A stretch of DNA of 46,911 bases, from assembly GCF_000702165.1 (NCBI RefSeq), contig NZ_JNKU01000017.1:1-46911 (forward strand), in the 5' to 3' direction. A program made the position numbers and the translations under genes. Below the pieces are notes generated by a model. That model was not told the origin of the DNA and searched no databases. It saw nothing but the letters and a program-made list of their open reading frames with translations. Below are positions 30,713 through 35,151 of the stretch, piece after piece. Numbering within the stretch: position 1 is the stretch's first letter; each line of letters starts with the position of its first letter. This DNA comes from Sharpea azabuensis DSM 18934 (lineage in GTDB: Bacteria; Bacillota_I; Bacilli_A; Erysipelotrichales; Coprobacillaceae).

Positions 30713-31531
30713 TTAAAACAATCCTTTAAAAAGTAAAAATATAAGAAAGGAACAGACCAGTATTGATACGCAAGGTGGATCAATATGGGTTCCACATTCA
30801 CTATTAAATACTCTTGCAAACATATCACATATAGCTGCAGCTAAGACGCCAAAAAGAAGCGTTAACAAAATGTCATGGGTATACATCATTGCATAGCCTG
30901 CAATTAAAGTAATATGATGAGTTGCTGGAAAACGTGAATCACTGAGGGAAAATACAAGTGAAAAGGCAGAAAGACTAAAACCTAATGAATAGTATTTTGT
31001 AATCTTTGTTAGATAGCCTGTTAAAAAAGAAATCGACAAGGCAAATAAAACAAGATAAATCCAATATCGTTTATCACCTTCTTCTAGAAATACAATTCCC
31101 CGATGATTATAGAGCTGCTTACTGCCAAGGATAAAACGTGTGCATGTTCCTACCATTACAATACTAAAAGCACCAGCATCAAATGGCAGCTTTAGTTTTG
31201 TTGCAAGAATAAGAAGGCAATATCCTATCAGTCCACCCAATGCCCCGAAAATAAAAACAAGCGGGTCGCCAGTAAAGATTAAAGGCTTGCTTATATCAAA
31301 GCCTTTGATCTGATATTTTTTTGAAGCATAGGCTGTTGCAACCACAGCACCATTAAAGATTACAGCCGGTATAAGCAATGGCTGTGTGTGAAAATGCAGC
31401 AGCAGTCCATGATTGCCTAAAACTGCAACAAGGCCTACAAAACCAGTTATTATAAAGATCTGTATTCCACCAATAAGGCTACCGAGGCCACCACCAGCTA
31501 AAGCAAGAAGTAGATATTCTAGTTTCATCAT
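30713..31531 (-). CDS. Polytopic membrane protein of unknown function
   Basis: A 272-aa protein with about eight hydrophobic segments, many Gly-rich. I do not recognise the family; it could be a small permease. Possible functional spots are the charged loop VFLEEGDKRYW between helices, the motif DSRFPATHHITLIAGYA, and the CGTHIDPPC stretch, which pairs two cysteines around His-Asp near the last helix. Ribosome binding site AGAAGGGGG. It sits 20 bases upstream of nnr, but a link to cofactor repair is only positional. Confidence 0.8.
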   Translation of the reverse strand: MMKLEYLLLALAGGGLGSLIGGIQIFIITGFVGLVAVLGNHGLLLHFHTQPLLIPAVIFNGAVVATAYASKKYQIKGFDISKPLIFTGDPLVFIFGALGGLIGYCLLILATKLKLPFDAGAFSIVMVGTCTRFILGSKQLYNHRGIVFLEEGDKRYWIYLVLFALSISFLTGYLTKITKYYSLGFSLSAFSLVFSLSDSRFPATHHITLIAGYAMMYTHDILLTLLFGVLAAAICDMFARVFNSECGTHIDPPCVSILVCSFLIFLLFKGLF

Positions 31532-33305: not shown

Positions 33306-33332
33306 CAAGAAAAAAAGACGCCTTAAGCGTCT
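33306..33332 (-). terminator. Terminator of the zinc-ribbon/DUF5685/J-domain cassette
   Basis: Stem AGACGC/GCGTCT (33316-33321 with 33327-33332) with a T run on the minus strand. It overlaps the J-protein stop codon. Confidence 0.83.
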
Positions 33333-33936
33333 AACAGCAAATGATTCCATAACGGCCACCAAAACAAGCCCCACAAAGACATTGCACCAATAAATAAGCA
33401 TAACAGCACTGACTTGGTGAAAAAGCTCGACCATATTGGGATGATGTCTGTTGATACTGTGAAGAACCTGATTGGAGTGATTGTAAAAGAATGATATATT
33501 CCAAGTTATTGGGATTCATGCTGTAGGCTGTTTTCGCAAATTCAATTGCCTGCAGACGATTCCCTAGGGCATTCTGACAAATGGCTGAATAGTAAAACCA
33601 GACATCATTACGTACACGAATTGTATCAAGAATTTTCCAGGCTTCATCAAATTGGTTAGCCTGCATATACATTGCCGCTTGATTATAGGCATAAGCCTCC
33701 TGTCCTGTCTGATTCTGATACTGACCATTGAAACTAGCTTGCGTCCCATTTTTTCTCGCATCCATGATGGTTTTATAGGCATTTTGTACTTCTTTGAATT
33801 TTTCAGTATATTCTGCCTGATGTGGCGAACCTATATTAGCGTCTGGATGATATTTCTTGGAAAGTCTGCGATAGGCTTTCTTGACTTCCTCATCACTTGC
33901 ATCACTAGAAATACCTAATATATCATAAGGATTCAT
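33331..33936 (-). CDS. J-domain protein with TPR-like middle and Cys-rich tail
   Basis: A 201-aa DnaJ-like co-chaperone, not a full DnaJ. The J domain (residues 2-65) has HPD at 30-32. The middle includes helices of TPR type ([20 protein letters not shown], then [20 protein letters not shown]). The last ~28 residues hold seven cysteines (QCC..QCLCGAC..CC), likely a metal or acylation site or a membrane-apposed tail. The G/F and zinc-finger regions of DnaJ are missing. The start is the ATG at 33934-33936, overlapping the DUF5685 gene by 14 bases; translation is probably coupled. Confidence 0.88.
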
Positions 33937-34756
33937 TCTTCTTTTCTCCCCTTTTTTCTCTGACTTGATTATACTTTGCCCATACACCCGAATAAAGAAT
34001 ATTTCTTAAAATATCACTATGGGTGATAATAGGCAGTTTTTCATATGACAATGCAGCATCTCCCATGAATATCTCAAGCATCATTTTAACGTCATCATCA
34101 AAGTGTTCATCTTGAGATCTTTTCTTTAAAGGATTAAATGTGCCCTTCTTTATATCCTCAAATAAGTCATCATAGGCATCCATTAAATAAATGAATTTAC
34201 CAAGATGATATCCAAGTGAATAAAGCTCATCAGCAAAAACAGCATCATATGAAACAATTTCTCCCATCACCCTACCAAATGTATTACATAAAAGATCTAA
34301 ATCATTACATGATTCATTTTCTAACTGATTTATTTTCTCTAATGCCAGTTCAATATGTTGAATCTTTTCAGGATATTCCTCTTTGATTTCTTCAAAAGGC
34401 TTTGTAAGTGATTTGAGCATGCTTTTATGTCGTCCTTCATCATGAACATCATCAACAGCTTTAAAATAAGCTAAGACAACATTCATTTTTGCGACATAGG
34501 AATCATACTTATTTATACGTGTTGTCACTTTAAGCAAAGGATTCACCATGCATTTCTCTTCAATGACTTCTTCAAGTGGTTCATTGAGAGCTGACAAAAG
34601 TACTTCGATAAATGTTAAGTCATTTGATAGAATACGAGTCGCCTTGACGCCATAAAGCTGTTTAATAGATTTACATAATCCACAATAATAGGAACGATAT
34701 AAAGCAAAATCATCCTCGCTTAAAGCATCTTTATTATATTGAATATATCCAAACAT
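33923..34756 (-). CDS. DUF5685-family protein
   Basis: A 277-aa, mostly helical cytoplasmic protein of the uncharacterised DUF5685 family. It has the N-terminal MFGYIQ..and [14 protein letters not shown] (Cys25, Cys28), Cys69 in EKCMVNPL, and two aspartate-rich motifs: VDDVHDE (101-107) and DAYDDLFED (193-201) followed by NPL. The paired Asp motifs in an all-helical protein recall class I isoprenoid synthases, but this is only my reading. It is second in a three-gene cassette, two bases after the membrane zinc-ribbon gene. No substrate can be named. Confidence 0.8.
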
Positions 34757-34758
34757 GC

Positions 34759-35151
34759 TTAAGTTCTCTTTTCAAAAACAGTTGAACAACGTGGACAACG
34801 AATATCTATACGTCCCTTACCTTTAGGTACACGGACAATCTGTTTACATGTTGGACATATGTAATATTTGTGATCTTTATCTTTTGATGACTTCTTGATG
34901 ACACTTACCCTTTTCATAATAGGGGCAATACTTTGTTCATAACGCTGATTTTCCTGATAGCGTTTATTGATATTTTTAGAAAGCATACGAAAGAGCACAT
35001 ACAATAAGAGTATATAAACAAAAACATAGATAATCACACTCTTGACAAAGACATTAGCAATTGTCAAAACAATTGAAAGAATCAATAAATGTTTATTGAG
35101 ACGATCACTGCCATAGCGTCCCATCATTAATCTATATAAGAAATTACGCAT
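34759..35151 (-). CDS. Two-helix membrane protein with C-terminal zinc ribbon
   Basis: A 130-aa protein. Two N-terminal membrane segments (about 21-36 and 38-56) are followed by a basic cytoplasmic linker and a zinc ribbon with CPTC (Cys99/102) and CPRC (Cys119/122). ATTATAGGAGG gives a strong ribosome binding site. First gene of the cassette with the DUF5685 and J-domain proteins; the shared theme is a membrane anchor plus several Cys/metal sites. Function unknown. Confidence 0.82.
   Translation of the reverse strand: MRNFLYRLMMGRYGSDRLNKHLLILSIVLTIANVFVKSVIIYVFVYILLLYVLFRMLSKNINKRYQENQRYEQSIAPIMKRVSVIKKSSKDKDHKYYICPTCKQIVRVPKGKGRIDIRCPRCSTVFEKRT

Follow-up and report, generated by a model that had tools for sequence, protein, structure and literature searches.

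A DUF5685 protein with a predicted class I isoprenoid-synthase fold and its cysteine-tailed partner in Sharpea azabuensis

The DUF5685 protein of Sharpea azabuensis DSM 18934, called D here, is predicted to have the class I isoprenoid-synthase fold and is encoded beside J, a J-domain protein whose C-terminal tail is rich in cysteine. That both parts hold together, the fold of D and its partnership with a Cys-tailed protein, we regard as highly probable. The sole annotation of DUF5685 so far is that of a family whose function is unknown, and in the full-text literature it was found in a single passing mention, in an in-silico paper on C. difficile. Placement of this orphan family in the isoprenoid-synthase superfamily, together with a named and near-obligate partner, makes it a directly testable enzyme-partner pair.

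Layout of the cassette

The window is the whole stretch of 46,911 nucleotides that was analysed (contig NZ_JNKU01000017.1). Among its open reading frames are three minus-strand genes, here named Z, D and J, with spacings of +2 and -14 bases. The features of the cassette are as follows.

34759..35151, minus strand: Z, a 130-aa membrane protein with two hydrophobic segments and a CxxC...CxxC zinc ribbon (ORF, alignment)
34786..34857, minus strand: zinc ribbon of Z, residues C99-C122 (alignment; Zn_ribbon_4-like match below cut-off)
33923..34756, minus strand: D, a 277-aa DUF5685 protein with a predicted class I isoprenoid-synthase fold (PF18937, AlphaFold2, VIA-align)
34439..34453, minus strand: first Asp-rich motif of D, D102-D-x-x-D106 (conservation; aligns with the phytoene synthase DDxxD)
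34154..34180, minus strand: second Asp-rich motif of D, D193xxxD197xxxD201 (conservation; aligns with the phytoene synthase NxxxDxxxD and the second Asp motif of FPP synthases)
34673..34684, minus strand: C25xxC28 of D, candidate metal site (conservation)
34550-34552, minus strand: C69 of D, candidate metal-site residue (conservation)
33331..33936, minus strand: J, a 201-aa protein with a J domain, a TPR-like region and a Cys-rich tail (ORF, alignment)
33751..33933, minus strand: J domain, residues 2-62, HPD at 30-32 (PF00226, E=5e-21)
33487..33684, minus strand: TPR-like region of J, about residues 85-150 (weak TPR matches, conservation)
33334..33408, minus strand: Cys-rich C-terminal tail of J, C177-C201, 7 Cys (sequence, homologues)
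33316..33332, minus strand: intrinsic terminator-like hairpin and T-run at the cassette end (hairpin scan)

J starts with ATG at 33936, its stop codon ends at 33331 and it overlaps D by 14 bases; a longer reading of J is a 218-aa ORF that begins with GTG at 33987. The terminator-like hairpin coincides with the J stop codon, and as shuffled sequence yields 1.0 terminator-like sites on average, the scan alone is not significant. A first-pass annotation of this DNA had described a tightly spaced three-gene cassette on one strand with a shared terminator, and the coordinates and the hairpin at the J stop confirm it. The CxxC/CxxC ribbon that it saw in the membrane protein is found in Z as C99xxC102...C119xxC122. 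The seven cysteines at the end of J are found as well, 7 of the 8 Cys of J falling in the last 26 residues.

Sharpea porci and Kandleria vitulina are the relatives that match best, which puts the window in their part of the Erysipelotrichia. An HtrA-type protease is encoded upstream and a prepilin peptidase downstream, and both recur at this place only in the closest relatives. A 272-aa multi-spanning membrane protein without a Pfam match at E<=1 is encoded elsewhere in the window (30713-31531, minus strand).

Fold and motifs of D

D matches PF18937 (DUF5685) with E=7e-87 and 291.7 bits, the gathering score being 26.7. No NCBIfam entry matched D. Sequence searches for solved relatives found none, the profile matches being designed helical repeats and coiled proteins that covered region 102-180 only. 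An AlphaFold2 model of D built from an alignment of 90 homologues had a pLDDT of 96.1 and a pTM of 0.92. The 50 matches listed by Foldseek against the PDB were all isoprenyl diphosphate synthases or the prenyltransferase MoeN5, the best having a probability of 1.0 and an E value of only 3e-3. With VIA-align 50/50 listed entries were isoprenyl synthases or MoeN5, with Z scores of 15.6-18.9 over 207-244 residues, which exceed the level that the tool warns of for helical bundles. The top score, 18.9, was to hexaprenyl diphosphate synthase, and the best viral structural match of D was also a trans-prenyltransferase.

Both Asp-rich motifs are almost invariant in the family. D102 is present in 172/172 homologues and D106 in 171/172, while D193 and D197 are present in 172/172 and D201 in 170/172. 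In the model the long helices 84-107 and 175-196 each carry one of the motifs at their C-terminal end, which is what class I architecture requires. The class I isoprenoid synthases of PF00348 and PF00494 likewise have two Asp-rich motifs, in the same order and at helix ends. When the D profile was compared with phytoene synthases (P=1.8e-4), both Asp motifs were superposed, DDxxDE of D with DDIVDE and DAYDDxxxD...NP with NILRDIGED...IP. Against FPP synthases the second motif alone was aligned (P=0.14), and a TPR profile, used as a negative control, gave 0.55. Weak Pfam cross-matches of D homologues were to SQS_PSY (three) and to DUF2600 (two), which we take to be the YtpB class IB terpene synthase family. 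The SQS_PSY matches (PF00494) came from 3/92 D homologues with a best E of 0.0075, none over the Pfam cut-off. Model and conserved residues together give good support for placing D, with its two metal motifs, in the class I isoprenoid-synthase superfamily. D has the all-alpha fold and the two Asp-rich motifs of that superfamily, and Mg-dependent turnover of a prenyl diphosphate would be predicted for it. The first-pass annotation had presented D as an all-helical protein with a CxxC; the CxxC stands and is invariant, and the isoprenoid-synthase fold was not visible to that reader.

D also departs from the known class I isoprenoid synthases. It has no significant sequence-family match to them, its second motif reads DAxxDxxxD, and it has an extra beta-hairpin, a CxxC...CxxH and a near-obligate Cys-tailed partner. 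The elements that bind IPP are rare among the homologues (GGK in 3/172, RR[GA] close to motif one in 8/172), and K187 is the sole nearly invariant basic residue. As D lacks the basic residues with which IPP is bound, chain elongation is not expected of it. A chain-elongating prenyl diphosphate synthase was rejected as the identity of D since both GGKxR and an RRG after the first Asp motif are absent. All homologues have C25, C28 and C69, and position 72 is occupied by His in 150/172 of them and by Asn in the window. This CxxC...CxxH is a candidate metal site.

D and its partner are conserved together

In 164/173 loci from three samples of Erysipelotrichia and Clostridia, D is followed directly by a J gene; a few genomes shared by two samples raise this count slightly but leave the proportion unaffected. 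Adjacency was 11/11 in the phylum sample, 78/80 among Erysipelotrichia and Lachnospiraceae and 75/82 in the Clostridia. Of the two exceptions among the 80 loci, one is at a contig end and one has J about 270 bases downstream. D-J adjacency is nearly universal. The first-pass annotation had stated that DUF5685 occurs with such J proteins in other Bacillota, and this is correct. It had also proposed that the neighbourhood of all three families be compared across genomes. They are often adjacent, with the order Z-D-J in 58/80 related loci, and the flanks beyond the cassette differ between the genomes of these 80 loci.

DUF5685 was found above the cut-off in 11 genomes of the phylum sample and in 157/291 sampled Clostridia genomes. 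Thermotoga maritima, a control genome far from the Bacillota, also carries it. Together with D, a partner with TPR and tail is present in 145/157 D-positive Clostridia genomes, compared with 4/134 D-negative genomes (Fisher p=2.5e-62, ignoring kinship). A model of TPR plus tail had strong matches in 19/20 D-positive genomes and in 0/31 D-negative genomes. Three D-positive genomes without a partner match have D at a contig end. D and partner co-occur even when they are unlinked.

The rule that D goes with a Cys-tailed partner is strong, not absolute. In three genomes (G339, G367, G395) residue 106 of D is Asn; two of them lack the partner and in the third it is unlinked. Another genome (G570) has an intact D, an almost Cys-free tail and a J domain without HPD. 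A J-TPR-Cys-tail protein occurs in G401 and a Cys-bearing tail in G535, and D was detected in neither genome.

A mobile cassette was considered and rejected on the plasmid records of D, of which there are only two, both very large Oscillospiraceae replicons with proteins 25-29% identical. PADLOC defence systems gave no match for Z, D or J.

The Cys tail is the constant part of the partner

HPD is invariant among the aligned J homologues. In the TPR-like region of J, W113, A137, P142, N144 and Y147 are nearly invariant. The last 45 residues of 153 tail-bearing homologues, which were selected for at least 4 tail Cys, contain 4-11 Cys with a median of 7, compared with a mean of 0.28 elsewhere. 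The enrichment of Cys in the tail, like the position of J behind D, is well beyond chance. The tail ends in CC in 60/153 of them. Clostridium-like tails, for example CDxCxxLxCADCCCECMGGDLISCC, look as much like metal-binding sites as like lipidation sites.

Two shorter versions of the partner were found. In four D-positive genomes the partner has no J domain and consists of TPR and Cys tail only, and its gene is unlinked to D. In four other genomes the partner has no TPR, and a J domain with a Cys tail is encoded directly downstream of D. The tail, 20-30 residues packed with Cys, is the only element that the three versions share. We therefore read the Cys tail rather than the co-chaperone as the constant counterpart of D, and a partnership of D and tail is strongly supported. 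The first-pass annotation had built its reading on a dedicated co-chaperone; this needs amending, as the J domain is not the essential part, the tail being kept without the J domain or without the TPR. J/Hsp70 chaperoning as the core of the cassette was likewise weakened by the J-less partners.

The J-less proteins are 134-136 aa long (L182:1963-2373, L183:1755-2159, L184:2088-2495, L185:2061-2465). A gene for a HAD-type phosphatase is close to each of them.

One D-negative genome (G392, L249:1095-2305) has a J-TPR gene with Z directly after it, and a hydrophobic helix replaces the Cys tail. This swap of Cys tail for helix is a single case.

Contact between D and J

The first-pass annotation had suggested structure prediction as a check of contact within the cassette. 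In one relative (L003) a single in-frame stop separates D from J. The read-through D-J fusion was modelled on an alignment that also contained other natural in-frame pairs. The pLDDT was 89 and the pTM 0.80; a linker within J was disordered, and the tail formed a helix of low confidence. D makes up 58% of the fusion, and a pTM of 0.80 therefore hints at placement of more than D, though part of J is fixed in place artificially by the near-zero linker. Contact is thus only suggested by the model, and for the pair D and J.

Proposed mechanism and alternatives

We propose that D and a Cys-tailed partner, here J, would form the core of a two-component isoprenoid module. D would bind one allylic prenyl diphosphate and ionise it with Mg, without chain elongation. 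The genome has one IspA-type synthase as a supply of prenyl diphosphate, and hence FPP should be available. The acceptor would be the thiol-rich tail, so that D would S-prenylate its own partner. Lipidation would anchor the partner in the membrane, and there its J domain would recruit Hsp70, either a dedicated paralogue encoded next door, as in relatives, or the housekeeping DnaK, as in the window genome. Z, like the other membrane proteins found in these cassettes, would assist facultatively from the membrane side. A tail that serves as acceptor would explain why only the tail is constant, why terpenoid genes do not recur close by and why a hydrophobic helix takes its place in one D-less relative. 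Prenylation of the tail by D is nevertheless a tentative idea, to which we give a good deal less than an even chance. The whole account, in which an isoprenoid module, tail prenylation and a lipid-anchored adaptor that recruits Hsp70 are combined, comes fairly close to an even chance without reaching it. An envelope modification system, as the first-pass annotation suggested, is possible.

ComQ-ComX and PalQ likewise pair a protein of isoprenoid-synthase fold with a small neighbour that may be its substrate. ComQ, the precedent for such a fold acting on a neighbouring protein, is FPPS-like, prenylates ComX, which is encoded next to it, and requires NDxxx/GDxxx in its pseudo-second motif (PMC5331326). 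The known chemistry of trans-IDS-like peptide prenyltransferases is on Trp (PMC13290415). ComQ and PalQ modify Trp of short peptides, whereas the window tail has seven Cys and no Trp, and D has DAxxDxxxD. With DAYDD...D in D and a tail free of Trp, a ComQ-type Trp prenyltransferase was rejected.

J itself resembles eukaryotic CSPalpha/DNAJC5 in having a J domain, a linker and a cysteine string as a candidate lipid anchor, a likeness of architecture only, not homology. CSPalpha/DNAJC5 is palmitoylated; the bacterial protein differs in its TPR-like region and in that some of its versions are without a J domain. It is somewhat unlikely, in our estimate, that DUF5685 is a bacterial protein S-prenyltransferase whose substrate is the Cys string of the neighbouring J/TPR protein, which would then be a bacterial counterpart of the cysteine string proteins. 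Another likeness is with plant ORANGE, a DnaJ-related, Cys-rich, membrane-associated chaperone of an isoprenoid-synthase-fold enzyme, to which J with D may be analogous. ORANGE carries a zinc finger of DnaJ type and, unlike J, is not known to have a J domain.

By analogy with phytoene synthase, which plant ORANGE and J proteins look after, D might be a class I terpenoid enzyme that acts on small molecules, a cyclase or a head-to-head synthase akin to phytoene and squalene synthases, with J as its dedicated chaperone or membrane adaptor. The best sequence-profile match of D is to phytoene synthases, and ORANGE stabilises phytoene synthase (PMC5025653, PMC12063368). Hsp70 paralogues occur in the cassette in 17/91 Erysipelotrichia/Lachnospiraceae loci, and HPD is intact in the aligned J homologues. 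However, no terpenoid-pathway gene recurs near D in the neighbourhoods of the surveyed loci, and the window genome has no other squalene or phytoene synthase. Several lineages dispense with the J domain and not with the Cys tail, and loss of J would be unexpected if chaperoning were the point. We consider this explanation, the main rival to our proposal, rather unlikely.

Alternatively, D could be a non-catalytic scaffold or sensor of isoprenoid-synthase fold that binds a diphosphate, perhaps a prenyl diphosphate, and docks a partner whose tail binds Zn or Fe-S. Most of the basic diphosphate-binding residues of known synthases are missing from D, which has a conserved candidate metal site in CxxC...CxxH, and Z is a zinc ribbon protein too. 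The Cys density of the tail and its CC and CxC motifs would also suit a metallothionein-like protein. A dead member of the fold, however, would be expected to lose its Asp motifs, and those of D are kept in 170-172 of the 172 homologues. The hydrophobic helix that replaces the tail in one D-less genome argues for an anchor and against metal binding. A non-catalytic D is in our view improbable. That Z, D and J are merely an accidental or generic housekeeping neighbourhood without shared function is very improbable indeed. Some genomes have Z and no D, several D-positive genomes carry Z away from D, and for Z chance proximity is possible, but for D and J it is contradicted by their adjacency amid changing flanks and by their co-occurrence even when unlinked.

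According to a 2017 review, no cysteine prenylation had been found in prokaryotes (PMC5331326). Should the tail be the acceptor, as we propose, D and J would provide cysteine prenylation in bacteria, the first such system native to bacteria. J would then be a bacterial J protein with a lipid anchor, an analogue of the cysteine string proteins of neurons, and S-prenylation would be widespread in gut Clostridia and Erysipelotrichia. If D instead makes a small isoprenoid, common gut bacteria would have an unrecognised terpenoid activity.

Z and other neighbours of the pair

Z has no family match above the cut-off, and C99, C102, C119 and C122 are invariant in its alignment. It is upstream of D in 60/80 related loci. 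Strong homologues of Z were also found in 11 D-negative genomes, and in several D-positive genomes Z is unlinked. Z as a dedicated membrane anchor, a claim of the first-pass annotation, was dropped because of these homologues in D-negative genomes, and other membrane proteins take the place of Z beside D-J. Z is an optional member of the cassette that is not specific to D.

In 30/52 Clostridia-type loci an unannotated multi-spanning membrane protein of about 170-190 aa is encoded directly after J. This family has no Pfam or NCBIfam match above the cut-off. Its members begin like IALSGILTALS... and are found in L132, L135, L141-L144, L146-L148, L150-L152 and others, as well as at L250:1894-2415 and L251:520-1044. 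One also follows J in the D-less genome G401.

A protein of the RseC/MucC family is encoded directly upstream of D-J in Pusillibacter faecalis (L100:3586-5508). This locus contains the string cdaA-cdaR ... gmk-rpoZ-priA and lies on pMM59_01, a replicon of 504 kb that is recorded as a plasmid.

An Hsp70 paralogue follows J in 11/80 related loci. The window genome has no Hsp70 in the cassette, only the dnaK-dnaJ locus. The second Hsp70 is DnaK-like, 572-591 aa long, and was seen at L016:7163-8881 and in L017, L018, L021, L022, L025, L027, L044, L054 and L079; it precedes D in L134 and L180. Finally, phosphatidylglycerophosphate synthase-like genes lie directly upstream of D in several Clostridia, at L256:1549-2097, L259:2403-3092 and L261:2782-3312, and a similar gene recurs near that place in five sampled loci.
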